DNA from: Sipunculus nudus
Lineage: Eukaryota > Annelida > Sipuncula > Golfingiida > Sipunculidae
Assembly (NCBI GenBank): GCA_026874595.1
Contig: CM049320.1
Span: 28,382,714 to 28,446,713 of the forward strand
DNA: 64,000 bases
Reading direction: 5' to 3'
The notes under the pieces were generated by a model. It did not search any database, was not told where the DNA came from, and worked only from the letters and a program-made list of their open reading frames with translations. Position 1 is the stretch's first letter. The number at the start of each line of letters is the position of its first letter. Below are positions 28,141 through 54,385 of this stretch, in pieces. The position numbers were made by a program, and so were the translations under genes.

Positions 28141-28143
<3 letters not shown>

Positions 28144-28192
<49 letters not shown>
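28144..28192. repeat. (AT)n microsatellite
   Basis: Lies at the left edge of sequence present in unit A but absent from unit B. Confidence 0.9.
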
Positions 28193-28198
<6 letters not shown>

Positions 28199-28258
28199 GG
28201 TAGTGTTACCCTCCGATGTAAATTGCTCTATGGCCTACAGACTAGGCCAGAGCGGAAT

Positions 28259-29228
28259 AACTCTGAAGAAAAACAACACTGTTAATTAACAACAGTCTGT
28301 TTCAAGGGATGCGACCCGATCATCAGGTGAATGTGGTTAGAATGAAGCTAACGGCGTGGTTTGAAAAGACGAGACTTTACGAGATTACGAGATTATGCTT
28401 TGTGCGATTCGGGGCGGGGGGGGGGCATGTGAAAGACTGACACTGATCCTCGGGTGCACAATAGGATTGGTCCGGGTACACGTGCGATACAGGAACATAA
28501 CAGGGCGGGGCAAAAAGGTTATTTATTGTTGTAAATTTTATATATATAATATAAAGATATATACCAGGACCCTGAAATATTTTAAAACTTAGCATTCGTA
28601 CTAATATTCAGCGTTCCCCCTTAACCCCCCCCCCCAACGAGGATCCGCTGGGCAGACTTATCTGTTCAGTTAGTTGTTCTCTCACTGCTTTGCAGTGATA
28701 AGGGACATGGCGTTACCACTACATCATGGTAGTGTACCGAGTGGAATGCATTTGGTTTGAGTAAAGTATAGTATATTTGCCTTTTACATTGTATATTTGC
28801 CTTGTATATTGTGTATTTTCATAGTATATGTGTATTTTTATCATATGTATACTACTGATATGTTCACAGCTACCAAGACCCTATTAGAAAACAGTTCAAT
28901 ATGCTAATTGAGCATCCTGGTATATATCTTTGTATTATATATAAAATTTACAACAATAAATAACCTCTTTGCCCCGCCCTGTTATGTTCCTGTATCGCAC
29001 ATGTACCCCGACCAATCCTATTGTGCACCCGAGGACAATATGATCAGTGTCAGTCTTTCACATGCCCCCCCGCCCCGAATCGCACAAAGCAAAATCTCGT
29101 AATCTCGTAAAGTCTCGGCTTTTCAAACCATGCCGTTATCTTCATTCTAACCACATTCAACTGATGATCGGGTCGAATCCCGTGAAACAGACTGTTGTGA
29201 ATTAACAGTGTTGTTTTTCTTCAGAGTT
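28259..29228. mobile_element. Foldback element with about 315-bp terminal inverted repeats
   Basis: The left arm (28259-28575) starts AACTCTGAAGAAAAACAACA. The right arm (28912-29228) is its reverse complement, ending TGTTGTTTTTCTTCAGAGTT. The arms stay highly similar through the poly-G/poly-C stretch, the TGTTCCTGTATCGCAC segment and the ATATATAAAATTTACAAC segment. The 336-bp middle shows no coding capacity. The ORFs within the arms are mirror artefacts. Unit B lacks the whole element. Confidence 0.85.
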
Positions 29229-29434
29229 ATATGAAATCATAAATGGTTTGGAAGGAAGTAGAATTGAGTTCCATCCAAACATGAGTTGAATATAAAAGGG
29301 GTCTACTCGGCACTAGGGGGCATGCAACTCTCATATCTATATAGACTCTCTTAGGTTAGGCAAACAAATTGCAGCCAGACCATATTCATTTGCTTTATAT
29401 TACTTTTGTACTACTTAGGAAAATATAATGTCAA

Positions 29435-29605
29435 CTTACAACAGTAACCTGTTGAATAAACCTATCGCTGATGATATAATATTGTAATAAAGTAGAGGCT
29501 ATGATAACATTGACGATGAGTAGGTTAAACAAGTCACTTAAATTAATCTAAATCGGCTTCTCTTACTCAGGTGACCGAGAAACGAACCATTGATCGACAT
29601 TAAAT
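29435..29605 (+). promoter_or_regulatory. Conserved upstream block (copy before gene 3)
   Basis: Matches 16728-16905 and 46170-46335. About 190 bp further on, TATAAAAG (29793-29800) and then a CTTTCAG acceptor-like site at 29873-29879 are seen, so a 5' UTR intron is possible. Not proven. Confidence 0.4.
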
Positions 29606-30330
29606 TTACAGATTCAAAATATTAAGTTGTCGCGTTGTTAACAATATATCATTATACCAACCCATACAACATACATGACTGAGTTTTCTAGATTTATTTA
29701 GTATTGCCAAGTAAACTGCAGCCAATCGATGCAAATCGATTGTATAAGCAACAATTGCACAAAAGACTGCAATGTTTGGATTAGCCATAAAGTATAAAAG
29801 ATGGGTTCAACAAAGATAGCTTGTCTTCGTGTGTTTAGATATCTTTCTCTGCATTATTTTCTTGTTCTTTACTTTCAGACGCTGCCGTTCTATATTTGGG
29901 AACTTTAACGCTTTAATGTGATTTCCTGGCAACAGTGAATAATATTAAATAGAGCCTATTTTCGTCTTTTCATGTTGCCATAGATCTTATGACAAATTGC
30001 CAACATATGTACGACTTTACAAACACAGTTGATTCAATACAGAATGGGTCAATATTCTATCCAAATGCTTTCATTTTATTCTTTGTGTTTAAGTTAAAGC
30101 TTTCAGATGCGTAATTCTAGAAGCAAAATGGATAAATATCTTTGTGCAGGAGGTTACATGTAATCGTGTGTTTACTCCATGATAAACATATTTTAGTATC
30201 TTGCATTAAAACACTTTATCAGGCTGTCAGCAGACTTACCACCAAGGAAGAAATATTTTTTTTAAATTTTGTATTTGTTTGTTAAATTCAAAGGTACCTG
30301 TGCATGTGTTTGGAGATACAGCCTAAAACC

Positions 30331-31966
30331 ATGGAGTAAGGGGGATCGGCAGCCTTGTACTTCTTTCTTATTTTCTTTTTATTTGCAATCATCCAGGGTA
30401 TTATTTATTGAATGCGGGTTGAGTGTTTTTTTAATGTTTTTATCACTTGGCCTAAACTATATTTTGCGAAAAAATTAAACGCTAAACTAAAAGGAGGCAG
30501 TTTGATGATATTAGTTATGCCTTAAAGGTATTTAGAATAAAATCAGAATAAGCAAAGTAGGTATGACATATCAGTGAAACACGGACATATAACAGCATTG
30601 AGCAAGATCAAGAGCACCATAATATTTGCAGCTGCAACTCAGTTACATCATCTGACACATCGATAACTTGATCTGATATATAGGGTTAAGAAAGGCAAGG
30701 GATCACGTCCCAAAGAAAGCAGCTGCTTGCTGGCCTGTAGGAAGCAAAGATCACCTCCGTAGCGATATCTGTATCTTCTGTGAAGAGTGATATAATCCCT
30801 CAATTAATCTTACTGCGTGCTCCCTCTTTGAGTGTATTTCCAGTGGGAATTATTTGTTCAATATAATGATATGAATCTGTAAATACGTTAGAAATTTTTG
30901 TGTCTGTTCTACGTACACACATATCTATTCTTGCAACTTTAAAAAGACATTAACTACGAAAATATCAAAATCATGTGTAAAGAAAGCACAATTTTGCATA
31001 TTTCTTATACACTTTGGTTTAAGGACACGAGAAAAATAAACCATAAACCAATTTAATGTAACCAGAAATACAAAAAAGGCATGTGGAACGTGTTTATAAA
31101 ATAAGAGGTACTCACTCGAACACTTCCTATGGTTTTAAGGTTGTTCGGATTCCTTGAAGCCGGTGCCTAAAATCCAGAAAGCTGAGGATCTACAGAGTGA
31201 TACTTGTAAAGGTATTTACAAATAATATATAGTGTAAAAACGCATGATGTAGTGTTCTCATGTGTGCCAATTAAAGCTAGATGTTTCAGTCTAGATCACC
31301 GGGCATAAGCGTTTAGTGTTGTTTAATAACCACAGTCATTTGTATTGCCTATTTTTACACATGTCGTAGCTTATATATTTCAAATAATTGATTGCTGTCT
31401 ACTGATTCATAAATAATATTGATTCATTGTTTTCAGTCTTAGAAAAAGACATGGATTACCTAAATAGGGCAAGTACATTTGGTTCCCATAAGTGTCCCTG
31501 TTAGCAAAAGCTAACTTTCTCTGTTTTAGACAAAGTAGGATTGAGTTGATAACTATACAAAACATTTACATAATATAAGCCATACCTAAAAATAGACCCT
31601 GTGTTTTAACACGAAGTGGCAATCAAATAGTTTAAGACAAGGTATCAGCGTTAAGATGTTTTTCATATTTTTGTATCACTTATTTCAAAGTGACGTTTGG
31701 AAGTAGATATGCATTGAAGGATATAAGAGAATGTTAGTTTCACGGTATGCTTTTCCTAAGTAAACTTGCTCAGTGGGGCTATACCCAGATAGATGAAAAT
31801 GGAAGAGTATCAATGTACAATGTGACAATTCATCGAAATATTAACTGGACACATGCATCGGAAGCGTGCAAGAAAAAGAAAGCAATGTTGGTAACAATTA
31901 GAACCCCTGAGGAGAAGCGCCATATTGAAACCATCATCGAAAGTGACTCTCATCTTCAGCCGCCGG
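30331..31966 (+). pseudogene. Gene 3: decayed lectin paralogue of genes 2 and 4, last exon deleted
   Basis: Exon relics: 30331-30397, 30632-30842, 31140-31211, 31437-31468, about 31761-31966. Lesions seen directly: TAA at codon 3 (30337-30339, CAA in gene 4); TAA in exon 2 where gene 4 has GAA; a 20-nt deletion after CACCTCCG in exon 2 (211 versus 231 nt); mini-exon of 32 nt with a GC donor; exon 5 acceptor shifted (CCTAAG for CCTAG|G). The final CTLD exon is absent: homology to gene 4 jumps from 50412 to about 50930 at position 33025 here. It cannot make the family protein. Exon 3 (72 nt) remains open. Gene 4 in unit B is its duplicate. Confidence 0.9.
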
Positions 31967-34400
31967 GTAAGGTTATAGTGAAATATAGTGTTATCAAAAA
32001 ATTAAAGTTGACATGTATTTTTAATAAATGGATACATATCCAAAATGGCCTTTAAATATAGGTGGGACATATTCATGTTAAAGAAAATAAGCATCTGGTG
32101 AATTGATCTTACTTTCTCACCCCGAGTATTTCGCACCCTTGGATACCCAGGGTATATTCATTTGTTTCATATCATCTCTTCGTTATTTAAAAAAGAGGAT
32201 AGTTACGTGAGACATAGAAAATGAGCTTTTATATACCAGATGCTTTTTCTTTTCCAGTCATTTCATTCTGACAGAATACGGACTAGAGAACAAAATACAT
32301 TTTACCTATTTAATATAGAAATTTCATTTGATATATGTGTATCAGCTTGGGACTACTTATATTCTATACATTTCCCTACTTAATACAAAGACATAATTCT
32401 GTGCCTGTTAAATCACTTCCACAGTTGTCGTTTTCAAAATACATAACCCTTGTATATCATGAAATAGTGAGCAAACAAAAGAAGCAATAGACCTTTTAAC
32501 CAACAAATATCTGTGCACTTTTGTTTTAATGTCCACAGAAACAGTTCATAGAAAGTTACAATTTTCGTCTGGGTTTTCATATTTGAGTTCAACGTACAAA
32601 CGTTGATGTGACAAATCTCAAGCATGCAATAATTGAATATATTTAGGGAAGAGACATAATATCGTGTTTTGAACTGTTAATTTCGTGACTAAAATATTGG
32701 ACCGTAAAATATCGTTGAGACTTCCCGGTTAACTCCATCTGTTGAGACCACCGGAAGTCTCTGTCTGAGTTATGGCCTCTCTGAATACTTTTGTAAAAAT
32801 AAAGTTAACATTAATTAAAAGCACGTGATAACACGAAATGTGAAATTACAATTAAAGTAATATCCATAAATTTTCATAAAACCTTAATTCCAATATATAC
32901 ACTATTCGGATACATGGTTTCTTTGAGACAAGAGAACATGACAGATGGTAAAAATAAACACCATAACAATGTACACAGAGTGAAAGCACCTCCCATTTGT
33001 TTTATTATTAAATATTGCTTACATTATGAAGTATAAATGTTTGTGTAGTTAAATTCGTTCAATAACTCATAGAAAATGATTATGAATAATGATTTGACCA
33101 GGCATGTTTCCTTGTTATATAAAAACTTAGATGAAAGCTTTAAATTTATGTTCCTAAAGAACTGTCTAAACACTATACTCAACGTCTGAAGGCATGGAAA
33201 CAAAATTTCCGTGGAGATGTTTCAAAATTTGTATACCCTTTGTCCGCTTATAGTTTTAAACTTACTGTCCATTTTTGTATATTCTCATTAAAATGTTACT
33301 TAATGTCACCAGGGCAAAATGTTTCTGTCAAAAAATATTTATTGCCCTCAAACAAAGGATTATCACTCTTAGAAATCATTGGTTGTTTGATAGCTACTGA
33401 GGTTTCTTTTACTTCCAACAACGACACCACGGTCGGGAATATATCGCCTTCTATTTAAATCAAAGATTACAGTTTCTTTGGTCAAGGCTCAATTATGCTC
33501 ACGTAATAATTGCATTTTGTCTCAGGTATGTCCAAGTATGATATGTCTAAATTATTGATATTAACCCATTAGTTGTCTAAAAGTTGCTTTGGAGTAAAGG
33601 AAAAGGTAACATTTGAGTCGACAAAAACATTGGCGAATGTCCTATTCATAAGATGTTTAGAACTTAATTTTTCACAAAAGAGATTATGCAATCATTAAAA
33701 AATACTTTTATGGGACGGTATTAACTCTCACTGATTTAATGTAATTATTTCCCTATCATGCTCCAGACCTACAATTAAATTATTATCCCAAATCACATGT
33801 TGAGTTTGATAAATATTGTGCAAGCTTTTATTTAACAAAAAAAACTAGTTTCTGTACACACAAGCTGTACAAAGGTGGCCACAATATTAGAGATCAGGAG
33901 AAATCAGCTGCTCAATTTTGAATGCCCCAAAGTTTTTTTTCACGGAATATCACGGCAAGTATGTGTCCAAGTCGTTTCAGTTCTCTGACAAATGCACATG
34001 GATACCCTGCGTAAGTAGTAACTGTTCAAAATATTTTCCCTTGGTTCGATTGGAGTCGGAATTTAGAGTTATTTATTTCACTCTCGTCCATTAACGGACC
34101 TACCTCAATTCGTTCTGTAAATGTATTCATTCTCGCTTGATACTAAAGGACTCAAAGATAAAATCGTAGTCCTAACTGTCATCTTATTTAATTTTGTCAA
34201 GAGCGTGTCCGTCATTTTCTTTAATCTAAATTTCTATTGATATGTATAATTCATATTCTTCAATATTCTTCTCGCCAGATGGGTTGTGGAATAGCTGTGA
34301 AGATTAATTCCCAAACCTTGATTAAAATTTGCAAATTCTTCGACCCTTTAGTGCGTGGATAACACAAGTGGTTTCATGTTTGTCAATAAGTGAACAGTTA
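31967..34400 (+). other. Non-coding remains of gene 3 intron 5 and 3' flank
   Basis: Matches 48783-52100 in unit B apart from the deleted last exon (junction near 33025) and the TIR element missing here. No gene is seen. Confidence 0.55.
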
Positions 34401-34407
34401 CGTTAGT

Positions 34408-34965
34408 TCAAATACTTTTAAGTGACATGATAACACAGGCTTTGCGAAGATGACCATGATGATCAAGGTTTTGTAGTTGATCTTGGTTAGTTTGTGTCTG
34501 GAGATGACTTCTCAGGCCATTCCGGGCACGGTACAACATCTCACCTGTAGGACACAAGTGATCGGTAGTTTCTGTTGAATTAGTTACCATCCTCGCCTTG
34601 CTGATCCTACGGTTCCTCCTAGACTCCGCCAGTCGTGCATTCTCTCCCTCATCTGTACCTTTTTGTGCAGCTGCACGCCGCGCCGTTCGATACCGCGATC
34701 CGTTCCAACGTATCTTTTTTGATCGAAAGTTTTTTTTTTCAACGATGCTTTGAGACTGTTCTTGTGGCTCCTCCACTAACCTCTGATGCAATTTGTACCA
34801 GATACCAGTTCTTTTTTTGGAAGGAGTCTTATATCTGGCATACGGCAAACGTGAACTGTCCAGCAAACCTGAGATCGATGCAAGATGGTTTAGATTGATG
34901 TAGGTTAGTACTAACTCAGTGTCTGGAACTTGATCTTGGCATCTAATATTCATCACTCAATTTAG
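34408..34965 (-). mobile_element. Non-LTR retrotransposon ORF2 tail (unit A copy)
   Basis: The minus strand carries the QDQVPDTEL motif, then WYKLHQRLVEEPQEQSQSI, RTARRAAAQKG and the terminal zinc-finger-like CPTGEMLYRARNGLRSHLQT. These match the C-terminal segment (QDK-PDTEV ... C-H finger) of LINE ORF2 proteins common in invertebrates. The 182-codon ORF is a mosaic with lost motifs and an abrupt 5' end near 34965, so it is a truncated relic. Its duplicate is 52130-52870. Confidence 0.75.
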
Positions 34966-35362
34966 ACAGGAACTACGATTGAAAATGGTTGGCTGTACCA
35001 TGGATGGCCGCACTATGTAGCGAGCGAACCATGACGTGACGTAATAATGTGGATGACGTCGGCATTCATGCGGTTTCGCGGAAATCCTTGTGTGCAGGGC
35101 ACCATGGTTAAACTATTACCAAATATCTTATCAGAATGTAAATACACTGTTTCTTGCATTATCACTCCACCGTATATAAACCCCTCTCTACCCGTTCCCA
35201 CTTACCACCTCGCGTGGAAGATGATGCGCTTCGAAAGCTCGTGTGTTAATTAATAAACAAGTTAGTATATCTAAAAGCCGCCACTCTCTCTCTTTACCTT
35301 TATATGTAAAGATGCAAGAAAAGCCATGCTGGTTCATATTATGTAGATGGAAATGGTATACA

Positions 35363-35426
35363 AGCAAATCGAACCCACGTTCTTCCGATTTCAGGTCGGG
35401 TGCCTTAACCACCTGGCTACGCCAGT
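35363..35426 (-). mobile_element. tRNA-derived SINE head
   Basis: The minus strand reads GTAGCCAGGTGGTTAAGGC (box A, about 35420-35402) and GTGGGTTCGATTTG (box B, about 35378-35365), spaced as in a tRNA promoter. It lacks a foldable complete tRNA, so a SINE is preferred to a tRNA gene. Confidence 0.75.
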
Positions 35427-35641
35427 TTCCCTTCCCCTCTGTGTATGTGTACACTTTTATAGGAACCAGCAGAGTGACGTCATTGTAGTGAAATCATAGT
35501 CTTACCAACTACGTGTGTCGGCACGTCGACTTTGAATGCAGCATGGAGGACTAATGGCCTTATATGGCGTGTGGCATATTTTACATATAGATGTGTGAAT
35601 AGCCTATCGGTTCATTGTGTATAGATGGAAATGTTATATAC

Positions 35642-35774
35642 AGAAAAGTCGGTTCACTGACGGTGGGAATACACAGAGGGGAAGGAAATCTTGTGTAGCC
35701 TAGTGGTAAAGGCATCTGACCAGAAATCGGAAGATCGTGGGTTCGATTCTCACCGTCAGTGAACCGACTTTTCT
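35642..35774 (+). mobile_element. tRNA-like SINE head flanked by a 29-bp inverted repeat
   Basis: Box A TAGCCTAGTGGTAAAGGC (35697-35714) and box B GGTTCGATTCTC lie between inverted arms. The left arm (35642-35670) starts AGAAAAGTCGGTTCACTGAC; the right arm (35746-35774) ends GTCAGTGAACCGACTTTTCT; one mismatch. An AT microsatellite follows. The unit B copy (53060-53146) keeps only the right arm. Confidence 0.75.
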
Positions 35775-35778
35775 ATGA

Positions 35779-35782
<4 letters not shown>

Positions 35783-35830
<48 letters not shown>
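35783..35830. repeat. (AT)n microsatellite
   Basis: Immediately follows the SINE head, as in the unit B copy; probably the element's tail. Confidence 0.9.
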
Positions 35831-35835
<5 letters not shown>

Positions 35836-36250
35836 CACCGCGCCATAATAATAAATGTCAGGTGTGCTAATACAGGTGCAGAAGTCTGTTTGGCAGGGCT
35901 ACTGAAAGGAACTGGATGTAATTCTCCACTGAATTTTCTAATGTCGTCATCGCAGCGCTTTGTCATAAGAAACGATTTGAAAGGTATTTAAACAAAAGTA
36001 CTTATAGACGAAGGCTTTGCAATATTCTACCCATTGTTAGAATGCGCGTCGCATTGATCAATTTTAATCAAATGTATTAATTTTGCGTACGGCTGTGATA
36101 CTAGTATTGTGAACACAATGTCAGGTAAAATTTCAGGTAACTGTTATGCAAACTGAACAATTGGTATAAACAAATATATAAAGAAGTAAGGAACTAAGAT
36201 TTGATTTGAACGTGAATTAAGGATAGAAAGAAATGAAAACATCCGTTTAA

Positions 36251-37164
36251 GGGGGAACATGACACTTTAAACTACCAATGGAATTTCTTAGATATTTTGC
36301 ACATGATACCTACAAGGCATACTTTGTAAAATTATGAAATAAAATTTTGGGGTCAATGTGCTAATTTTTACAGTATATGAAGTTGAAAATGGACACTTGT
36401 GGTGGGTTTTTATATGATATTATCACTAAGGGGGAAACAAAAGTTACACATTTTAGAAAACTGACCAATGTATTTTTCAAAATATTCTACATGAACATGC
36501 AGAATTAAATATTTATCTTATTTAAAGACAAAAATGTGTATGTCAATGGGTTAAATTTTAAAATATTAGGCCAAAATATGAAAATTTTGGACATTATTAG
36601 TTTAGAAAATCCCCCAAAGGTGGCGCTGGTGGTTGTGAGACAGAGAGCAAGTCCACACATAAATGGCTTCTGGCGTCAACAATATATGATCAGCTTTAAG
36701 ATGCCCATATAAAAAGAAATATAAATATCAGTACTAAAAAACTATGGGTATATACTAATTATCTCTTTAGAATTACACCATCAGTGTCACCCACAATCAT
36801 ATGGTGATATTTATGCTCTCTTGTGTCATCTACTTGCACCTGTCAAAACTGACAGTTGACGAGATAGCCGTTGGTATCTTCCTGCACTTGAGCCTCTTCT
36901 GGTGATATTCTGTTTGAAAATTTCTATGTAAAAATTTGTACTATTTAAAAAATAATTTAATAAAGCTGTAACATTGAGCATTCCTACAAGTATTGTTCAT
37001 CCTAGTTACTTTTCTCAAATGATGCCCTGAAGCGATGACGTTTTCATGACAACAAAAGTTACAAACGGCAAAATATGTAATCTCATGACAATATAATCAA
37101 ACCAGATATTTTTAGTTTGCAGTGTCCTCCAGTAGGGGGCGCCAGTAAAGTGTCAAGTTCCCCC
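36251..37164. mobile_element. Non-autonomous TIR element (914 bp), TTAA-type target
   Basis: Ends are GGGGGAACATGACACTTTA and TAAAGTGTCAAGTTCCCCC, 19-bp inverted repeats with one mismatch, flanked by TTTAA on both sides. Unit B has the empty site (ATCCGGTTAAGTATTCC near 53680-53700). No transposase ORF lies inside, so this is a MITE-like element, probably piggyBac-type from its TTAA target. Confidence 0.85.
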
Positions 37165-37549
37165 TTTAAGATTCCATATGATACACAGCGCTCAGTGGGG
37201 CCTGATAGAATGGATAACAACGTAGATTTTTGAACGACAGTTACATTGTCCGTACACCATTAACTCCAATTCTGCTTTTGCATCTATTATTATACTAAAT
37301 AAAGCCATACTTTTTATATGTTCTAAAGTGGATATACAGTGAAATGGAAACACATTAAATATAGCATCGGTTTGCTTTAATTAAGTTTTTTTTGTATTCA
37401 GGCTTTGCTTTATTACAAAACTTTGATCTTGTTTTGTAGAGATGGAATAAATAAGGCGTCTTTGAACAGACCCCGGGTATCAGTCGACAGGAATGGGACG
37501 TGGCACGAGGACAGATTATCATAATCATACCCCTTCTGATTGTTTGAAG

Positions 37550-37601
37550 ATGGCTGGTTTAAGATTCTATATATCAGTGATAGCCATTATTCCTGCCACT
37601 G
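37550..37601 (+). CDS. Gene 5 exon 1, signal peptide
   Basis: MAGLRFYISVIAIIPAT followed by CTG|GTGATT; 52 nt, phase 1. The equivalent in gene 6 is at 54076-54127. Confidence 0.75.
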
Positions 37602-38938
37602 GTGATTTGTTTTTCTTATTTAAATATATTTAATTTATCTGTATAGCAAAATAGATAATTAGTGCTTCCTGTTTTATATCATGTTTATTATATCATGTAT
37701 ACAATATCCATTAAGGATTCGGTTCTTTCTTGCTTCTGGTAATATAACACATCTCCATTTGATATTTGCAAATATATATATATATGTGTGTGTGTGTAGG
37801 AGACAAAACAACCTTTTCTGAAATATATATATATGTGCAACAAATGTAGATACCAAGCTCGGGCATTTAAATACAGGTTTGAAATCTTTAAACTATAAAT
37901 TACTTGGCTACATGTCTCATTTCTTCTTCCCACGGGCACTAATACACTAGTTTATTGTCTTTAAACAACAAACTTACTCGGATGTATGTCCATTTATGTC
38001 CATGTTCTACTTACCCGGGGAATTAATATATAGCTATGTCTTTAAGCTATGTTTCCTTTACCCTTTCCACTTCCTGTTGATTTCTTTGATATTCTTGATC
38101 CTAGCCTTTTCTTATAGGAAATGAAATTCAAACAAATATGACATTGGACATCCTTTTCCATTAACCCAGTCCATGGGGGAGGATAGATTTTTTTTTTTCG
38201 GAAAAGTGTCTTTATGTCATTAATTGTAATGGTCTCCTAAAAAGGGAACAAATTATTCATTACAATAAATCGTAAAGATATAGGTTTCATCATTCGAATT
38301 GTCATAAAATTGGAATCGCTCAGCAAATATTTTTGTATGCATACCTTCATAGATAATCACTTTCACTATTTTTCATTAATATCATTATCATTATTATTAT
38401 TATTATATTAAAACAACCAGCTATTGTTCGGGAATCTGAATATTTTCGAGAAGAGAACAAGGAAGGTATCGGATCCGTTATATGCATCGTGCATCGCGTT
38501 ATAATGTCTCGCATTCAATGTCTTGCTCTTTGCGCGAGACAGGCATCACCACCGTGTCTTAATGTGAATTTAAGCAGAGACAAGTGCATTCTCCTTGGCC
38601 CTGCATCAAATGGAATGCATGTGGTTAACTCCAGGAAAACAAACCACTGGAAATGCAGAAAAGGTAATGATGACTGTAATATAAAAATCTTAAATTTGGA
38701 TTGTACCTAAGACAACTTATTTAAAAAAGAGTCAAGTTTCATATTTGACGGTAATTTTTTATGTTTCAAAAGGAAGAACGAAAACAATAAAAGATACATT
38801 AGGGCAAAGTTTTTTTAAAACGAGAACTGTATATATGTTTGTGTATTCATGAGGTAACATATTATATTTGTATAAACACATAATATTATTTTTTCTCACA
38901 GTATTTTCCAGATACATACACGTTCTTTACTCCATATT

Positions 38939-39003
<65 letters not shown>

Positions 39004-40627
39004 TTCCTTTTTATTTCAGAAAAAAATAATCTTAAAATCTAATACGCCTAGATTTGAAAGGCAATAGGGAATTTACAGCGCTGTAATATTAGGTGCATAA
39101 GATTATGGCTGAGTAATCATGGCGAATACAAGGGATACAGACTTCCTCATCCGAATAATGTTTTGAACTATTCCATTATGTTATAAATTGAAATATAATT
39201 TTTTTTTGTATCATTATTTACATTTATTACTATAATAATTACCATTACCCTTCATAAAAATGCGGGGTGTGATTGTGACTGAAACGTTTATGTTTAATGA
39301 TTAAATGTTACTGCAGACTGTCCAACTGGATGGAAACACAGCTTTAAGGATCCCTACGGACAGTTGTCCTGTTACAAGGTAACGATGGCAACAAGGATTA
39401 CCTGGGCTGAAGCAGAGCAATACTGCTTCGATATGGACGCCAAGTTAATTGGGATTGAAACAATGCAAGAACAGGCTCATGTGGAATGCTTTATGAAAGG
39501 AAATTCAGGATATTACCCCCCAGGTGAGATGTAAATTAAAAGTTTTATCATCTTTTTTGAGACTGTGTCCTGCCAATATGGTGAAAATTCATAGGACAAA
39601 ATACTTAGAAAATGTGTTAGGTCCAAAATTCCAAAATAAGTAGCCGCCATATATTTCATTTCTTAACTTTCTAATATAACTTATGGGGGCAGATTTTTAA
39701 ATTTGCAAAATAATATGGATATATTATAGATGCTGCACATGCTGCACATTTTGTCATATTATTTTGAACGAAATATGCTTTTAATCCACTTTCAGGGTTG
39801 TCGTTTTCAAACTGTAGAAAATTTACATAAAACACGTATATCATAAAAAAGAATATGCAAACAACATAAATATCTGTGGCTACATTTTGAAAGTCTACAT
39901 AAACTTCTGAAAATATCATTATTTGCATCTGGATCCTTATATACAACCTCCGGATACGACCGAACCACTGTCACGGCCTGGCAGCAGGCCTACAATCGTG
40001 ATCTCGCATTAATTATTATAACGATATGTATGATCCTTGTATATTAATGTTAATTTCTACATGACAGACGGTAATACATATTTGTACGGCCTACAAAGTA
40101 TAAATCCTCACAAATGCCCATTAAAACATTTATTTAACATGTAAAGCATTTGTGGAGAATACTGAGCAAAGCTAGAAAGAAACTGACGGTGAGGGATAAA
40201 TACGACATACTCTGAACGGACGCCCACCTTGACAGTGTAAACAAAGAAACCTTATATTTGTTTAATTATTGAATCTTGAGAACAATGTTTTGCCTATAAT
40301 GAATATATTCATTTTTCAATAGAAAAATCCTAAAGGAGCTGCACCACTGTTAAATCAGCGAGTGACACTCTTTGTGTTTTTACAGGTGGCTTATCTCAGA
40401 CCAAACGGTATGGTTACTGGACGGGAGGAGTACGCCGGTTTAATTATTACTGGGTCTGGAATTGGGAAGTTCTAACCATGACGTATTTGAACTGGGGTGA
40501 CGAAAACTGGTCTTCTACGAGAAGATACATCCTGATGAGCGTTACTGAAGACTTCAAATGGTACAAAGAGGAAGAAAACAGTCCTCATGTCTTTGGCTAC
40601 ATTTGTGAACGACAAGGGACTGTCTAG
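37550..40627 (+). CDS. Gene 5: chimeric secreted PAN-like plus C-type lectin protein (247 aa)
   Basis: Exons: 37550-37601, 38421-38663, 39317-39523, 40386-40627; all introns phase 1, GT-AG. Residues 1-17 are a signal peptide. Residues 18-98 are PAN-like with CLALCARQASPPC at 51-63 and Cys 39, 73. Residues 99-247 are the CTLD: DCPTGW, C100-C117, WAEAEQYC135, MDAKLIGIET, then YWTGG (178-182), LNWGDENW and YIC241. The C2-C3 pair is missing. Exons 1-3 match gene 6; exon 4 and the 3' flank match gene 2. The stop (TAG, 40625-40627) replaces the TGG of gene 2 and trims six residues. A linker exon present in gene 6 (55831-55887) is gone. The open frame is intact. Function is unknown. Confidence 0.85.
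38421..38663 (+). CDS. Gene 5 exon 2, PAN-like domain
   Basis: Acceptor AACAACCAG just after an ATT-repeat tract, donor AAAG|GTAATG, 243 nt open in phase. The gene 6 copy has a 1-nt insertion at the equivalent place. Confidence 0.85.
38942..39000. repeat. (AT)n microsatellite
   Basis: In gene 5 intron 2; not present at the matching place in gene 6. Confidence 0.9.
39317..39523 (+). CDS. Gene 5 exon 3, first half of CTLD
   Basis: Acceptor TTACTGCAG, donor CCAG|GTGAGA, 207 nt. Canonical CTLD opening with both N-terminal cysteines. Too short and spliced to show as a long open frame. Confidence 0.9.
40386..40627 (+). CDS. Gene 5 exon 4, gene-2-type second half of CTLD
   Basis: Acceptor TGTTTTTACAG. 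The frame continues as GGLSQTKRYGYWTGG and ends at TAG. It differs strongly from gene 6 exon 4 (GGLDQVTKFGYWTGGRRV). Confidence 0.9.
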
Positions 40628-40803
40628 GACATGCCAATGGAATAAAATTATATCATGAAGAAGATGATGATTTAGTTAATATCACCATCTACCTAATGTT
40701 GGACATAAATGAGCAACGACCTCGAGAAAGGGAAAGAGCCTAAATCACCTTCTAGTGACCCATTTATTAAGATACTTGTGGTTTCTTAGAGTATCAAATG
40801 TGC

Positions 40804-40809
40804 AATAAA
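40804..40809 (+). terminator. Possible polyadenylation signal of gene 5
   Basis: AATAAA 177 bp after the stop. The matching site in the gene 2 flank reads GCATTTTAG, so it is not shared. Confidence 0.35.
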
Positions 40810-42708
40810 GTGTTAAAATGAGCTATAAATGTTTATGTAGTTTGAACGTGTTCGTAGGAGTTGTACTTAGTCTAAGAGCGTTTGAGAAACTTTCCCTAGG
40901 GTGATTGTGAATAAGTATTTGACAAGGGATGCTTTAAAAGTAAACTACTATAATTGTCGTGGCTCAATGAATAATATTAGGGATAATAATAATAATGTCA
41001 TTCATTTATGATTGCAAAATTATCTTCATGCGCTGAAAATATAAATTTTGAGGAGATATATTATATCATTTTTAGATGTAACAAAAGATGTTAATCATGG
41101 ACTTTGTTTAATAGCCTATTGGAAGTTTATGTACAATTTTTACGGGCTATTGTTTTGTACCACATTTGATCTCTGTACTGATTGTACTGTCTATATACGG
41201 TCTACTTTTATTTATTTGGCCTTAAAACTGAGTGTATTATAAATGAGAAGGGCAAATTGTTTCTATAAAAAAAATTGCAAGCATACAAAGGCTTATCTTT
41301 TTAAGCTAAAATGGTTGTTTCATATGGACTAAGATGTGTTTTACTTCCTTAAATGACACCGCGGTTGAACTTTCTATTTAAATCATATTTAAGGTTACAA
41401 TTGTAAATGTAAGCTTATGCTTAAAGATCAAACAAACAAAAACAAAAACCTCCAAAGCCAAAGTTCATACCCTAAGAGCGTTTACCACTCACGCTGGCGA
41501 TGTTTCCTGTATGAATTTTCTTATGTGGCGGTAGAAGTGACAGTTCCTGGATGAGGGAACTAATAACAATAATCTAAAATCTAAGATTAGATGGACTCAA
41601 TTTTTCTTCTAGACCTTATTTTCACAAAGTAGAAACTGCAAAAATATCACTTATTTATCAGTATTGGACCATTTGGCCTTATAACAAATAATGCGGAAGA
41701 CATATAAACAAATGAAGGGTGTCTGTTAGTTAAAATTTTTCAATTGTGCTTTTTAATAAAAAATAAATCGCAGTGAAAAATAAAACGGAAATATAACTAA
41801 GGAACTTAAATGAAACCAAAAGCCGTATTCTGTAGAGAAGCGGTTAAATTGCTATCTTAGGAAGCAATATTTCAACACATTTTATAAAAAAAGCATTGAT
41901 CTCATGGAAAAAACCCCGAAAAATAAATATTGGCTACAGGTTGGCTGTTTAATGTAGTAAATATTCTAATAAATGTGATAATTACAGTGAAGATGCAACC
42001 AACGCGCCGGAACATGAATGTAAAATATCAAACTTGGTTCTTGTAACAAAACTTTTCGTCTGAATTTCAATCGTACGATTGTCAAAATAATGAAATAACA
42101 TTGAAAGTTACATAAAGATTTGCAATAATATGTACATTATCCCACGTAATCAGTTCAATATGGGTTAATACAAACGTTCCCTAGCAAAAGCATAGGAAAG
42201 ACTTACTATCTATAGGTCACCTGTTTCATAGGTTTAAATTTTTTTAGTAAACACAGTCTATATATTTCTGTTTACCAAGAGATCATGACCAGAGGTCCGA
42301 CCATGTACATGCACGGTAACACCCGAATAAGGAGTAGGTATATGAAAGAAGAAAGACAGAAGAAACACTAATTGGAAGCTTGAGAAATCTTGATTCATCA
42401 AGTCCAATAGTACGACCGCCAGGTGGCGTACGCCCAAATTTTGCAACACTGACCGCGGCCGGTCCAAGTTTTTTTTTTACCACATGTCTACAGAGGTAAG
42501 GAAACAAAAATGGAAAAAATGGTTACTACAATAGTATTTAAAGGAGAACATACCTGGTATGGGCATGGGTAAATTTAAGTTAAAAAGGATAATCGCCAAA
42601 TTTCAATGACAACAGATTGTCTAAAAATGACACTGAATTGTTTAAGATGTAAATTATCTGAACATTCTGATAGATCTTGCTAAAGGTAAGGGATAACATG
42701 GATAGCGT
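40810..42708 (+). other. 3' flank of gene 5, duplicate of the gene 2 flank
   Basis: Collinear with about 25640-27625. Contains a decayed counterpart (42280-42560) of the ORF at 27164. No gene is supported. Confidence 0.5.
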
Positions 42709-45470
42709 TGTTTTTTTTACAAGTATTTATTGTTCAAAAACAAATACATCCATACATATATAAATACAAGAGACAAAAATACAAGACAGAAAGTATATAA
42801 ACATATGACATACAAGAAGACAAGAACAAAATGCAGGTTTAGTGTTTATAAACATTCAGGTAATTTAAAGTTGTTTTCCATAAAAATTGTCTATTAAAAA
42901 ATTTCTTATGGTCTAATTATGTAGCATTAATTTAGTAGTACGATAATCAATTAAGTTATTTGGCTGATAAATGGTTTCCACAATATTTCGTGGTAACCGA
43001 GTTTATCTTTACACCTTGCAACTTTTTTCTCAACATAGTTATAATTTTTTTATAAAACTTTTAACTCCATCAATTGATTATACTGTCCCTTTGCACTTTG
43101 TGACATATATATATAATACTTTACAAAAAGTATAATTTTATCTAATAATCTGTTTGAACTCATGTTCATGTATATTATTTTTGCAGAAAAGATTCTTGGT
43201 ATACCCAGGTCAAAAAGCCAATTATACAGCTTTGTCAAAAGTTCTTTAGTATGGATGCAGTCATAAAATATATGTATTAGAGTTTCTTTCTCCTCTTTAC
43301 AGAAAGTGCAAAGATCAGTATCTGTTATGCCAGCTTTAATCAGGAAGGGGTTTAAAGCCAGGATCCTTTGTAGAATTTTATACTAAAAATATTTTAATTT
43401 AGTAGATATTGATGTAATATAAGTGTTATGGAATGCTTCATTTATATTGTCTTTTGTACATTCTGGAATATCTTTTTGGCACATTAAAATGGCATTTTTC
43501 GGCTGTGTACATTTCCCTGCAATGAATACATTATATATATATATATAGTTTGTGGGTCTCTTTTGTTGTAATAGTTTATCAACTTTATATACATATGGTT
43601 CTTCTTGACTGTATCTGTGTTTAATTTCTCTTCTCCATTTTTGTGGTAAAGCGTGCATGATACTATTATATTTCATTGTGTCTATTTTGATACTGAATGT
43701 ATTCTGTAATTAATCTTTACTACAGAAAGTATAGTGGTTGTTTTTTTCTTTTTTAAGTCCTGTATATATCGAATGCCCGCATCATACCATTTCTTATAAA
43801 ATGCAACTTCGTCATTTATTTTAATATGTGAATTATACCAGACAGATTGTTTCAAAAAACTCATTAGTTTTTTTCAGGTATGAAAAAGTTAAACCCACAC
43901 CACTGTTAATTCTGTATCACAGTTTAATTTTTCATCTTCTGAGAGGGTTTTTTGGATTATCTTCTGGGAAAAATTCATTCAAGTTTTCATCGGAAGGTTT
44001 TAACATTTCTGATAAAAATAATTTTGTATAAAATGTTTCAATTTCTTTCAATATATCTTTCTCATCCGTTAAATACTGATTATTCGTTTGTTCAAGAGAT
44101 TTTCCTTTTCATAATTTTACAATAATTTTTCGGTTATATAATCTTGTTTCCAAACCTAGAAAAATATTTTGATGGCTTTTCTCCATCCATATACCAATTA
44201 GTTCTACATCTAAACATAGCGCCTGCTGTTTTCTCCTGGATGATTTTCTCAATTTTTAGTTTTTATTTCATGTATATCTTGTAAAATTTTTAAATCAGAT
44301 GTCTTTCCATAGTTCCTCTAATTGAGCAAGTCTAGTTACCATTTGTTGCAGTGTAACTTTTCTCTCTTTGTTTTGCTTGAAAGCGAATGCAATTGTAGCC
44401 CCTCTAATCTTACTTTTAATTGTGTCCCACAATAAAGCGGGATTTACATTGTTATTATATTGTTTTGCTTCTTTAATTGTTTCTTTAACTAGTTTAGTAT
44501 AATCTGAATTTTCTAAGTATTTACCATTAAATTTCCAAAAGCCCGGTCCTCTTTTTTTTAAAGTTTAAATCAATTTTAATCCCGACCATTAAATGATCTG
44601 TTTTAAAGCCTGGGGAAAAATAGGATTTTTCAACCTTTCCGCTGAATCCTTTAGATATAAGAAAAAATCTAATCTACAAAATATCTGTGTAGGTCTCGTT
44701 CTACTTCAAGTATACATTTGTACTGGATGTTGTTCTCGCCATATATCTGCTAGATCAAGATAATCCAACCACATATTAATTATCACTTGTGCTCTAACGT
44801 GTGTTGTAGGATTACCTCCTCTTTTATCTTGATTAATATTTAGCACTAAATTAAAATCTCCAGCTAATATTCTATGATCATTTGAAAAAGAATCAATGTG
44901 GTCTATGTCTCAAAGAAATCTGAATTATCTTGATTAGGCCCATATATATTTACCAATGTCATTTGTATTTCTTCTACCGTAATGTCTAGTATTAAAAATT
45001 GTCCTTTTTCGCTCTGGATGGTGTCATGTATTTCAAAATTAACATCATTTTTTAATAAAATACAAACTCATTTTGAATTATAAGTACCATGTGAAAATGT
45101 ACCATGTCTTCTATTTTTCTTCATCTTTTATTGAGCTGTGTGTTTCCTGTAGTAGAATTACTTTTGCTTTGCTCAAATGTAGCCAATGAAAAGTTTCTCT
45201 TCTTTTAATATTATCTCAAGTCCCCGTACATTCAATGAAACTATCTCAGACATATATATTAATAGAATCTAAGAGTATCAATTGAATAAATACCTGCATA
45301 CACATAACATACAGAGAAATTGTGCATTTGTGCGTGTGTGTAACGACATAAATACAAGAAATGCTGCTCCTTGGCACTGAACATAATAGACTGCTGTTTA
45401 TCAGTGCTGAACGAGACTCCAGCTCCTTCAGTATTTAACATCACTCGTTCCTTTTTCACTTACTAATACT
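42709..45470 (-). mobile_element. Tx1/L1-like LINE with the reverse-transcriptase core deleted
   Basis: The minus strand runs from an endonuclease start (MSEIVSLNVRGLE, KVILLQETHS, about 45250-45140) through NIYGPNQ and AGDFNLVL (about 44950-44840), DFFLISKGF, and PALLWDTIKSKIRG (about 44440-44400). It then jumps, near 43860-43900, to the C-terminal VWYNSHIKINDEVAFYKKWY. HALPQKWRREIK and a CTFCKEEKETLIHIFYDC zinc-finger-like motif (43312-43258) follow. The reverse-transcriptase palm, including its catalytic motif, is missing, and stops are present. It ends in a poly-A tail (poly-T at 42711 on plus). The empty site is seen in unit A near 27628. Confidence 0.85.
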
Positions 45471-45612
45471 TGCGTAGTTGATAAAGCTATAAACATTCAT
45501 TTAATCAATGCTACATAATGTTAGTCGATGTTAACTGGATTTCAGGATATTTCCATATTATAGATAATGTATCTCCGTACAGTTACAATGACTGCCGTGA
45601 TATAAATGATCT

Positions 45613-45759
45613 AATGTGTCTTGTACATAAATAACTGAATTTGTTACAATACTATCCGCGTATTTAACTTAACGTCTCTGCTGTTTCAGTGTCACCTGAC
45701 CATTGATAGTGATGACATCAAGATACCACTGCGTGGCCGTGCACTGCGGTCAATCAGCC
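45613..45759 (+). other. 147-bp segment in unit B absent from unit A
   Basis: It splits GATATAAATG...GCCATCTATAGACG, which are adjacent at about 27748-27762. Either an insertion here or a deletion there. It includes TTTCAG followed by a 26-codon open stretch (LTIDSDDIKIPLRGRALRS). No repeat ends are recognised. Confidence 0.5.
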
Positions 45760-46169
45760 ATCTATAGACGAAACAACATTAATGTGTAAAACTCTCATAA
45801 CCACGTGATCGCCTTACACCTTAGGAGATGACAAACCAATTTAAAGCATACTTAATAGAGCATTGTTCGCCTAAGCTTTTCCATGGGTCCCCATGTTTAT
45901 GATATATGCATTTCAATTACTAAGGTGCACTTAATTCCTAATCAGTTTTTGAGGCTGAGGTAAATTTTATTTTCATTCCACATATAGTCTTCCAATTTTG
46001 TGAAATTTGGGCGTTTTTAGTGTGTTTGGGTTGGGGATGGTTTATAAACCTGTCATATAAAACAAATAAAAATCGGTTCATGGTAAATTGATAGAATTAG
46101 GCTGCAACAGTTATTCATCAAACCAATTAGAAATCATAAATGGTTTGGGAGAAAGTAAAATTGAAACTA

Positions 46170-46335
46170 ACAACAGTAACCTGTTGAATAAACCTATCGC
46201 TGATGATATAATATTGTCATAAAGGCTAAGACAACACTGACGATGAGTAGGTTAAATACCTTATTTAAACTAATCTAAATCGGCTTCTCTTACTCAAGTG
46301 ACCGAGAAACCAACCATTGATCGCCATTTAATTTA
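46170..46335 (+). promoter_or_regulatory. Conserved upstream block (copy before gene 4)
   Basis: Third copy of the block at 16728 and 29435, about 0.8 kb before the gene 4 start codon. Confidence 0.45.
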
Positions 46336-47051
46336 CAGATTTTAAATATTAAGTTGCGCGTTGTAAACAATATATTATTATTTGAACAAATACAATATAC
46401 ATTACTGAATTTTCTAGATTTATATAGTATTGCCTAGCTAAATGCAGCCAATCGATGCAAATCGATTGTATAAGCAACACGCGCACTAAGACTGCAATGT
46501 CTGGACAAGTCATGAAATATAAAGATGGGTTCAACAAAGGTAGCTTGTCTTCGTGGGATTTAGATATCTATTTCTGCATTATTTTTCTTGTTCTTCACTT
46601 TCAGACGCAGCCGGTCTATACTGATGAACCCATGCTTAAATTTGATTTTCTGTCAACCGTGAATAATATTAAATAGAGACTATTTTCGTATAGTCATGTT
46701 GCCATAGATATACGCCAAATTGTCAAAATATGTACGACTTTACAAACACAGTTGATTCAATACAGAATGGGTCAATATTCTATCCAAATGCTTTCATTTT
46801 AATCTTTGTGTTTAAGATATAGCTTTGAAAGACGTATTTCTAGCAGCAAAATGGATATATATCTTTGTGCAGGAGGTTACATTTAATCGTGTATTTACTC
46901 CATGATAAACATATGTGGGTATCTTCCATTAAAACACTTTATCAGGCTGTCAGGAGACTTACTATCAAGGAAGAAATATTTTCATATTTCTGTATCTGTT
47001 TGTCAAATTATGAGGTACCTTTGCATATGTTTGGAAATATAGCCTCAAACC

Positions 47052-50000
47052 ATGGAGCAAGGGGGATCGGCAGCCGTGTACTTCTGTCTTATTTTCTTTT
47101 TATTTGCCATCACCCAAGGTATTGTTTATCGAATGCAATTTGTGTTTATAAAGATAGGGAATATTCAGAAGTATCTGTGCTACGCTGGCAAATAATTTTC
47201 TTTTTGTTTCAAATACGACGATGAGATTTATTGAAACCTTATAACTTCATATAGGATATACTGAAGCTCACACGTGTTTTTATTACTTGGCCTTAAAGAT
47301 ATTTTGAGAAATAGTTAAACGCTAAACTAAACAGTAACGAGACAGTTGATGATATTAGTTCTGTCTTGAATATATTTAGAAAAAAAATAAGAATAAGAAG
47401 ATTACCATTATATTTGCAGCTGCAACTCAGTCACATCATCTGAAACATCGAGAATTTGATCTAATATATAGGGTTAAGAAAGGCAAGGGATCACGTCCCA
47501 AAGAAATCAGCTGCTTGCTGGCCAGTGGGAAGCAAAGATCACCTCCGTGCAGAGAAGTGGCACTTTGTAGCGATATCTGTATCTTCTGTGAAGAGGGATA
47601 TCATCTCTCAATTAATCTTACTGCGTGCTCACTCTTTGAGTGCATTTCTGGTGGGAATTATTTATTCAATATAATGATAAGAATCTGTAAATACGTCAGA
47701 AAATTTTATTTATGTCCGTTCCAAGTACCCAAATATCTATTTTTGCAATTTTTCAAAGCCATAAACTACAAAAATATAAAAAAAATCATGTGTAAAGAAA
47801 GCATAATTTTGCATATTTCTTGTACTCTTTGGTTTAAGCACACCAGAAAAATGAACTAGAAACAAATTTAATGTAACCTGAAATACAAAAATAGACGGCT
47901 CGAACGTGTTCATAAAATAAGAGGTACTCACTCGAACACTTCCTATGGTTTTAAGGTTGTTCGGATTCCTTGAAGCCGGTGACTATAATCCGGAAAGCTG
48001 TGGATCTACAGTGTGATACTTGTAAAGGTACAATTAATATATAGTGTAAAAACGTATGATGTAGTATGCACATGTGCGCCAAATAAAGCAAGATCTTTTA
48101 GTCTAGATCACCGAGCGTAAGTGTTTATTGTTGTTTAATAACCACATTCATTTGTATTGCCTTTTTGTACACATGTCTTAGTTTCTATATATTTCAAATA
48201 GTTGATTGCTTTCTACTGATTTATAAACAATATTGATTGATTGTTTTCAGCCTTCAGAAAGAGGAATGGCTAACCTAAAAAGGGCAAGTACATAAGTGTC
48301 CCTGTTGGCAAAAGCTAACTTTCTCTGTTTAAGACAAATTAGGATTTAGTTGATCACTATACAAAACATTTACAAAATATAAGCCATACCTAAAAATAGA
48401 CCCTGTGGTTTAACACGAAGTGGCAATCAAAAAGTTTAAGACAAGGTATCACTGTTAAGATGTTTTTCATATTTTTGTATCACTTATTTCAAAGAGTCGT
48501 TTAGAAGTCGATATGTATTGAAGGATATAAAATAATGTTAGTATTGATTTAAGTTTCACTGTATGCTTTTCCTAGGTAAACTTGCTCATTGGGGCTATAC
48601 CCAGGTAGACAAAAATGGAAGAGTATCAATGCACTATGTAACAATTCATCGAAATATTAACTGGACACATGCATCGGAAGCGTGCAAGAAAAAGAAAGCC
48701 ATGTTGGTAACAATTAGAACCCCTGAGGAGCAGCGCCATATTGAAACCATCATCGAATGTGACTCTCACCTTCAGCCGCCGAGTAAGGTTATAGTGAAAT
48801 ATAGTGTTATCGAAAAATTAAAGTTGACATGTAATTTTATTCAATGGATACATATCCAAAATGGCCTTTAAACATAGGTGGGACATATTCATGTTAAAGG
48901 GGCCCAATCACCTATTTGACCTTTCTAAAGTAAAGGTAATCCCTTGGAGCTTTTATAAAAATAGGCAAGAAAACATGGATATCACTGCACACAGGCTGCT
49001 TGTTTTGTTTATATCAACCCGTATATAATATGCGAGGGCCCGCCAAAATAATCAAAACAAATTCAACAAGAGCTTCTGGCAGCAAGTCAGATAAGCCAGA
49101 GCTTTGCAAATGACGTTTTGCAACAAGTGACCTTTCTACCTCCGCATATATGCAACCTACCATCTAAGGTTACATGTTTTTCCCATTTGTAAACATTGCT
49201 GTGTTTACAAACATGGTGTTGATTACAAGATCATAAATCCTTCATGAAGGCGTTATAAAAACTTTTCACAACCAAAATTACCCTTAGATCATTAATATAT
49301 ACACAGAGGAAGCCAGAAATCACATAAATTCTTTTTCAAAATGTAGGTGATTGGGCACCTTTAAAGAAAAAAAAAAAAAAAACAGCTGGTGAATTGATAT
49401 TTTTTTCTGACCCCGAGTATTTGGGATACGCAGGGTATATGCATTAGTCAACTCTTTTCTTCGTTATTCAAAAAGACGATAGTTACGTGAGACATAGAAA
49501 ACGAGCTTTTATATACCCGATGCTTGTTCTTTTCTAGTCATTTCATTCTGACTAGAGGACAAAATATATTTAACCTATTTAATATAGAAATTTCATTTGA
49601 TGATTGTTAATCAGAATTAGACTAAATACATCATTTTAATTTTAAATATTAAAATTCTACAAAATTAGGTTTTTTCTCATTTTTATTTTTTTTAATACAA
49701 CGCCTAGTACGAAATCTATACGAGTAAAGAGAAGACATTATTATCAAAGATTTTGTCATGATATTGATATCAGAGGGCATTCATGTCTATACATTTTTCT
49801 CGTTAATACAAAGACATAATTATGTGCCTGTGAACCACTTCCACGGTTACCGTTTTCAATCTCCATAACCCTTGTATATCATGAAATATTATGCAAACAA
49901 GGAGCAACAGACCTCTAACCAACAAATATCTGTGCACTTTTGTTTGAAAGTCCAGAGAAACAGTTCTTAGAAAGTTATAATTTTCTTCTGGGTTTTCAAA

Positions 50001-50759
50001 TTTGAGGTCGACGTACAAACGGTTATGTGACAATTCTCAAGCACTGAATGATTTAACATATAAAGGGATGAGACATAATATAATCTCTTGAACTGTTAAT
50101 ATCGTGGCTAAATGATGGGACCGTACAAGACCGGTGGGACTTCCCTGTCACTGTATGAGTTATGGCCTCTCTGATTAGTTTTGATAAATTAAAGTTAACG
50201 ATATTTAAAAGCACGTGATAACACAGAATGTAAAATTTGCACAGTTAACAAGTAAAATAATAGCCTCAAAAGTTTCATAAAACCTTGAACCTCAATATGT
50301 ATACTATTCGGATACATGGTTTCTGTGAGACAAGAGAACGTGGCAGATGGCAAAATAAACATCATAACAATGTACACAGAGATACCTTACATTTGTTTAA
50401 TTATTGAATATTGCTAACAATGGTAGATCTTTCCTATCCGAGTATATTTCACTATCCAGTAAGATAATTTTCAAGCAGTTCCAATAAATGATGTTGCAGG
50501 TGGCTTATCTCAGGATAAACGATATGGTTACTAGACGGGAGGAGTTCGCCGGTCCAATTATTTCTGGGTCTGGAACAGGGAAGTTGAGACCATGACGTAT
50601 TTGAACTGGGGTGACGAGACTTGGCATATTAACAGAGGCTACATGCTATTGAGCATTACTGAAGAATTCAAATGGTACAGGGAAAAAGAAAACAGTCCTC
50701 ATGTGTTCGGCTATATTTGTGAAAGAGAAGGAACTGTCTGGGACTTGTCAATGGAATAA
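47052..50759 (+). pseudogene. Gene 4: paralogue of gene 2 with two nonsense codons
   Basis: Exon layout equals gene 2: 47052-47118, 47420-47650, 47956-48027, 48251-48283, 48576-48782, 50500-50759, with identical exon lengths. The signal peptide (MEQGGSAAVYFCLIFFLFAI), PAN-like exon and linker are open. The mini-exon has a GC donor and an in-frame TAA (48271-48273). The last exon has TAG (50532-50534) where genes 2 and 5 have the Trp of YWTGG. The rest of that exon stays open to the normal TAA. Exon 5 ends in A before the donor (CCGA|GTAAG), a slightly weaker site. If the mini-exon is skipped, the protein would end after the first CTLD half. A young pseudogene is most likely; a truncated secreted product is possible. 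Confidence 0.85.
48898..49360. mobile_element. piggyBac-type MITE (463 bp) with TTAA target duplication
   Basis: Ends are AGGGGCCCAATCACCTA and TAGGTGATTGGGCACCT (inverted, one mismatch), flanked by TTAA at 48894-48897 and 49361-49364. Unit A retains the empty site ATGTTAAAGAAAATAAG at about 32077. No transposase is encoded. It lies in gene 4 intron 5. Confidence 0.9.
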
Positions 50760-52870: not shown

Positions 52871-53059
52871 GCAGAAGGGTTAATCATATTGCTCTCCTGG
52901 TGCTGGTTGTTATATCACTTCAGTCCCATAAGACACATAATACATAACAAATAATACATGCGCGGTATTGCTTTTACAGATGAAATAAACATACTCAGAG
53001 TAGTTCAACCTAAGTCTGAATTATAATATCAGTAGGAGTACGGCGTCTAAGTCGCGGAA

Positions 53060-53270
<211 letters not shown>

Positions 53271-54292: not shown

Positions 54293-54295
<3 letters not shown>

Positions 54296-54380
<85 letters not shown>
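54296..54380. repeat. (AT)n microsatellite
   Basis: At the left edge of about 0.5 kb present in unit B but not unit A. Confidence 0.9.

Positions 54381-54385
<5 letters not shown>

Follow-up and report, generated by a model that had tools for sequence, protein, structure and literature searches.

The chicken BG and primate KIR proteins are vertebrate receptors of the immunoglobulin type of fold. Published work describes how, in both families, clustered paralogs lying in the same direction recombine, with the 5' side of one gene becoming joined to the 3' side of another (BG, PMC4046983; KIR, PMC7516082). In Drosophila yakuba, 76 chimeric genes produced by tandem duplications, which are polymorphic in the population, are reported (PMC5460883), and large repertoires of CTLD proteins are described for invertebrates (PMC10140915), with no mention of chimerism or introns found in that main text. 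A narrow literature search returned no paper that combined chimeric genes and C-type lectins with tandem duplication and unequal crossing, and a similar search on PAN lectins in molluscs returned none that matched in full. Formation of a chimeric gene through tandem duplication or recombination between paralogs is a well-known kind of event, to which the gene described here, gene 5, adds a new case.

We examined a 64,000-nucleotide stretch of the 1.43 Gb genome of Sipunculus nudus (C15:28382714-28446713; hereafter the window), in which C-type lectin-like genes lie in a row on the + strand. Using self-BLAST of the window we identified two colinear copies of one ~15-kb segment, X and Y, in direct orientation. 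Copy X (24258-39562, + strand) runs from the 3' part of gene 2 through gene 3 into the 5' part of gene 5, and copy Y (39598-56570, + strand) from the 3' part of gene 5 through gene 4 into the 5' part of gene 6, with the X/Y boundary lying inside gene 5, in the intron between exons 3 and 4. As described in the Drosophila yakuba study (PMC5460883), a tandem duplication ignoring gene boundaries appears to have made a chimeric gene and, as described for the chicken BG hybrids and primate KIR fusions, clustered same-direction paralogs appear to have recombined, one giving the 5' side and another the 3' side. However, whereas the Drosophila yakuba chimeras are described as polymorphic, the surroundings of gene 5 have diverged by 12-16% and the gene shows signs of constraint. 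Its two halves also come from members of the same family and meet within one folded domain, and its fold is other than that of the BG and KIR receptors. In keeping with the invertebrate CTLD repertoires (PMC10140915), the window's contig holds several paralogs with a PAN-like module and a CTLD.

In gene 5, homology to two different neighbours meets at one point. Blocks at 37206-39562 match blocks within 53714-56570, on the gene 6 side, at 84-87%, and blocks at 39598-42708 match 24258-27629, on the gene 2 side, at 79%, the latter similarity running colinearly from 39598 through 42708, 45754-46117 and gene 4 up to gene 6. A sequence-only reading of the locus had taken the gene 6 match through exons 1-3 to about 39578 and the gene 2 match (from 24260) from about 39595 onward, and these blocks confirm that switch. 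Within the window, blastn at E 1e-3 gave no plus-strand match between genes 2 and 6 themselves. The two homology edges in gene 5, at 39562 (gene 6 side) and 39598 (gene 2 side), are only ~36 bases apart, and their meeting is the mark of a tandem-duplication junction; chance is excluded, because the match spans the entire duplicated unit. The best single-breakpoint alignment placed the switch at 39573-39583 (range 39570-39600) with a score of 292, compared with 41.5 for an entirely gene-6-type and 38.5 for an entirely gene-2-type alignment. This puts the duplication junction (39570-39600, + strand) within the phase-1 CTLD intron, where the sequence-only reading had located it. At the junction ~20 bases between the two matches were assigned to neither side, with no clear microhomology or inserted element there on inspection by eye. 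A 30-base pattern from the gene 6 intron occurs once in the window, and an AT repeat lies near the junction at 38942-39000.

Outside exon 4, K2P values between blocks of X and Y are 0.09-0.20, a spread that exceeds sampling error and whose source may be local rates, constraint or later conversion. One block spanning genes 3 and 4 (30610-32083 against 47398-48899) has a K2P of 0.09, with 0.13 in its neighbours, and is a possible gene-conversion tract. The region also contains a second tandem duplication of ~2.4 kb (17138-19529 and 19941-22433) directly upstream of gene 2, which has a K2P of 0.08 and is probably younger than X/Y, and an inverted repeat between genes 2 and 3 (28257-28569 and 28915-29230), with arms of ~315 bases that are 92% identical.

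Gene 5 consists of four exons on the + strand, with a total coding length of 744 nt, AG/GT at each internal boundary and all introns in phase 1. Exon 1 (37550-37601) is gene-6-type and carries the start codon and a short hydrophobic leader; its donor, GTGATT, is weak and it is the least certain exon. Exon 2 (38421-38663) encodes a divergent PAN-like module and exon 3 (39317-39523) the first half of the CTLD, both gene-6-type, while exon 4 (40386-40627) is gene-2-type and encodes the second CTLD half and the stop codon. The uninterrupted 247-codon protein proposed earlier is recovered as an open frame of 247 residues, and the exon ends given for it, 39523 and 40386, are exact. By eye, the CTLD intron is in phase 1 with GT/AG context in 15 of the 15 genes that have both exons, and any exchange between two such introns thus gives an open frame. 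For this reason we dropped the idea of a lucky in-frame join.

Both neighbours that resemble gene 5 are present in the row. Gene 2 (22497-25470, + strand; exons 22497-22764, 23075-23146, 23396-23428, 23741-23947 and 25211-25470) is intact, with five exons encoding a lectin-like protein of 279 residues, and is of the same type as the 3' half of gene 5 (type A). Gene 6 (54076-57594, + strand; exons 54076-54127, 55330-55573, 56324-56530 and 57350-57594) is of the same type as the 5' half (type B). The latter had been described as broken, and this holds for exon 2, which has one extra base followed by a stop, but not for exons 3 and 4, which are open; moreover, skipping exon 2 leaves an open frame of 167 residues, since the exons are in phase 1. 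Gene 4 (~47400-50740) has a stop in exon 4, and in gene 3 the stretch equivalent to the exon 4 region of gene 4 is missing. Intron 1 of gene 6 contains, at 54295-54968, an AT run of 43 units and then ~0.5 kb that gene 5 lacks and that is probably inserted. Elsewhere in the window there is a further lectin-like gene of another type at 10216-12510, with a CTLD first-half match at 10990-11148 and the second half in the reading frame 11995-12510 (Pfam 22.7 bits, cut-off 22.6), and near the right edge an A-type exon 4 remnant with two stops (63062-63175).

The parentage of the two halves was assessed with a 15-gene set made up of genes 2, 4, 5 and 6 and 11 paralogs, the latter kept from 13 fetched regions of the window's contig for having adjacent exon 3 and exon 4 types (L040 and L051 gave none); the set is confined to C15 and excludes a cluster there near 29.5 Mb. 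Gene 3, being without exon 4, was dropped from the exon trees, exon 4 of L042 and L043 was cut at frameshifts, and the stop codons of gene 4 and L039 were set to X before counts. At the protein level, exon 3 of gene 5 shares 76% identity with gene 6 and 35% with gene 2, and exon 4 shares 91% with gene 2, 78% with gene 4 and 35% with gene 6. In the exon 3 tree genes 5 and 6 form a group (aLRT/UFBoot 98/91), and an exon 2 tree of eight genes, using only the first 49 codons of gene 6, likewise joins genes 5 and 6 (98.4/86). In the exon 4 tree, gene 5 is instead grouped with genes 2, 4 and L039 (99.4/100), and gene 6 with L041 (96.8/98). Separate trees thus gave the outcome expected by the sequence-only reading, exon 3 going with gene 6 and exon 4 falling in the gene 2 group, with AU p values of at most 0.0021. 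The AU test rejected placement of gene 5 exon 3 with the A group (p = 0.0021 for nucleotides, 0.0011 for amino acids) and of exon 4 with the B pair of gene 6 and L041 (p = 0.00054 and 0.00041, respectively); the more conservative SH test agreed in three of the four cases, leaving the reverse arrangement for exon 3 nucleotides unrejected (p = 0.079). Within the A group gene 5 branches off first in the exon 4 nucleotide tree (74.2/66) and is not sister to gene 2, and an amino-acid FastTree makes the two sisters (0.823); the exon is closer to that of gene 2 than to that of gene 4 on the basis of the 91% and 78% identities and the colinear flanks.

Older relatives fix the direction of change. L041 (28.49 Mb) is 58% identical to gene 5 in exon 3 and 28% in exon 4, with 62% to gene 6 in exon 4, and L039 (28.45 Mb, - strand) is 54% and 55% identical to gene 2 in exons 3 and 4, respectively, so that L041 goes with B, and L039 with A, in both exons. 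Furthermore, genes 2 and 4 can be aligned to the left and to the right of the breakpoint (24070-24256 and 24425-24700). Since these outgroups keep the pairings of genes 2 and 6, and since genes 2 and 4 match across the breakpoint, gene 5 is the derived gene. An ancestral gene 5, from which genes 2 and 6 were derived, was rejected on the same two observations, and would also require two separate changes that both stopped at one position in the intron.

We also evaluated divergence and selection along the gene. Non-coding flanks of the 3' half differ between genes 2 and 5 at 450 of 2779 sites, compared with 15 of 238 in exon 4 (Fisher p = 1.4e-5; Ka/Ks 0.31), and this low exon 4 divergence constrains genes 2 and 5 jointly, not gene 5 alone. 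In the 5' half, blocks of genes 5 and 6, exons included, differ at 228 of 1904 sites and exon 3 at 26 of 204, which is not below the level around it (p = 0.34; Ka/Ks 0.58). In exon 2 Ka/Ks is 0.61 over the first 51 codons, while three non-synonymous and no synonymous differences fall in exon 1. When exon 3 changes were polarised with four outgroups, the gene 5 side had three synonymous and one non-synonymous change and the gene 6 side one and 15, respectively, with six sites unresolved, while for exon 4 the gene 5 side had three of each, with three sites unresolved. For exons 3 and 4 together, four of ten changes on the gene 5 lineage are non-synonymous, compared with ~7.6 (~76%) expected in the absence of selection (p = 0.016; p = 0.041 for exon 3 and 0.16 for exon 4 taken separately), and with single outgroups the count is four of 13 (p = 0.0007). 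The non-synonymous share in exon 3 differs between the gene 5 and gene 6 lineages (Fisher p = 0.013), and the gene 6 lineage, at 15 of 16, is not different from neutral (p = 0.14). These counts are small and come from parsimony against diverged outgroups, with nine of the 41 differing sites not polarisable and left out. The gene 5 branch has near-zero length in both nucleotide exon trees, which is not fully borne out by parsimony, as this gives four changes in exon 3 and six in exon 4, the branch in the exon 4 protein tree being 0.05.

We propose, with high confidence, that gene 5 arose when unequal exchange at the CTLD intron fused two paralogous lectin-like genes. The ancestral row, all in one direction, would have been A1 (now gene 2), A2 (now genes 3 and 4) and B (now gene 6). 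In this row, intron 3 of B and the corresponding CTLD intron of A1 would have undergone unequal exchange, duplicating the segment from the A1 intron to the B intron and giving a junction gene with the upstream side, exons 1-3 and half an intron of B, followed by half an intron, the last exon and the 3' side of A1. The join is in frame since the matching introns are in phase 1 in all 15 family members examined, and the product would be a predicted secreted protein with a PAN-like module and one CTLD, of which the scaffold half is B-type and the ligand-loop half A-type. The earlier claim of a chimera at a tandem-duplication junction is upheld by the geometry, by the separate exon trees with their topology tests and by the outgroups, which make gene 5 the derived gene. 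Set against the proposal, the uneven divergence between X and Y is not predicted by a single event and one clock, barring local rates or later conversion.

The same fusion gene could have come about in two steps, with the whole A1-A2-B block duplicated and a later deletion fusing intron 3 of the B copy (B') to the intron of the A1 copy (A1'), a rival for the route only. Fusion by deletion is one of the routes proposed for the chicken BG family (PMC4046983), and such a route leaves identical colinear blocks and junction, so that sequence alone cannot tell it from a single step; it needs two events where one suffices, and we regard it as rather improbable. Patchy divergence along the unit makes some conversion between the copies plausible, but a full B copy with its 3' half overwritten by gene 2 would require a tract far longer than ordinary ones, as the colinear gene 2-side match from 39598 stops only at the end of the unit. 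Conversion was rejected as the sole cause, since the matches on both sides extend to the ends of the 15-kb unit, and we give it almost no weight. A misjoin of two copies or haplotypes near 39580 during assembly has in its favour the nearby AT repeat and the proneness of tandem arrays to assembly failure. It is nevertheless very unlikely, as the K2P values of 0.09-0.20 between the copies outside exon 4 are more than long reads confuse, and the gene that crosses the junction is open throughout and has its splice sites. In addition, a whole-genome protein search (149 matches; 150 of 842 candidates scored), on which the uniqueness of the junction rests, gave a best match outside the window of 59% identity.

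Gene 5 might also be a genuine fusion that is already a dying pseudogene, its open frame a leftover with no selection upon it. This would fit with the breakage of genes 3, 4 and 6 in the row, with the lack of constraint on exon 1 and with a Ka/Ks of ~0.6 between genes 5 and 6. However, the 247-residue frame and the splice sites are intact while the surroundings differ by 12-16%, non-synonymous changes on the gene 5 lineage fall below the neutral expectation, and its branches in both nucleotide exon trees are near zero, with the reservation from parsimony and the protein tree given above. Decay of this kind thus appears unlikely, if deserving of some weight. The polarised counts lend modest support to gene 5 having been kept by selection since the join, as support and not as proof, because the counts are small and the outgroups distant.

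The fusion protein is predicted to have a CTLD across the join. Pfam PF00059 matches gene 5 with 25 bits (cut-off 22.6) over residues 125-243 and profile positions 2-107, spanning the join, and inspection identified the cysteines in 'EQYCFDMD' and 'YICE' as well as 'WTGG'. Exon 2 of gene 5 gave no match to a Pfam PAN profile, and two of the eight exons tested, the homologous ones of L042 (21.9 bits) and L043 (25.2 bits), passed PAN_1 (cut-off 21.4). The inner disulphide C2-C3 is absent by inspection, exon 4 of gene 5 having one cysteine; among 13 full exon 4 sequences, with the cut exons of L042 and L043 left out, 11 have one cysteine, L039 none and L048 three. EPN or QPD and WND are the sugar/calcium motifs of classical calcium-dependent C-type lectins, and none of the three was seen by inspection in exon 4, which has FKW at the WND place. 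The lack of these motifs and of the inner disulphide makes classical calcium-dependent sugar binding by gene 5 unlikely. Alignment to a mannose receptor domain placed the join ~11 residues before the WIGL-like strand (WTGG), and in the C-type lectin fold the sugar-site loops and last strands come after this strand. The ligand-loop region and last strands would thus come wholly from exon 4, and the binding face should be gene-2-type and not mixed, with any mixed surface predicted to be limited to the contact between the scaffold and loop halves. The earlier suggestion of a new recombined fold surface accordingly stands for the new pairing of halves but not for the binding face. The novelty of gene 5 would lie in a predicted gene-6-type N-terminal module and helical half paired with a gene-2-type ligand-loop half. 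As a best guess, its product would be secreted, would serve in recognition, would bind its ligand in a non-classical way and would be expressed from upstream sequence of B type; here transcription, secretion, folding and ligand recognition outside classical calcium-dependent sugar binding are all inferred.

Lectin-like frames of a different kind were also observed in this genome. Intronless C-type lectin frames of ~330-440 residues recur across the large contigs C1-C17; a count by eye gave more than 50 among the matches listed, and many of these share the same score. A single copy was examined (C15:36249000-36256500; L052:1-7501), and in it two lectin frames stand beside MULE transposase (PF10551) and CARD (PF00619) frames, a layout resembling that of a mobile element with lectin and CARD genes as cargo.

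The gene 5 locus is an unusually complete record of gene birth inside one domain, with copies of both parents, a junction placed to ~30 bases, older relatives that fix the direction and, for comparison, gene 6 as a copy that decayed during the same period. One tentative extension, which we think unlikely, is that the fusion replaced its parent, gene 5 taking over under selection while gene 6, once released, degenerated in its PAN-like exon and first CTLD half. If so, the phase-1 CTLD intron would be a natural recombination point for the family, at which scaffold and ligand-loop halves would be swapped between diverged paralogs (~35% identity) without loss of frame. Gene 5 provides a swap between scaffold and ligand loops that is open to direct testing, and illustrates how, where intron phase is conserved, the recognition domains of diverged paralogs can be cut and rejoined.
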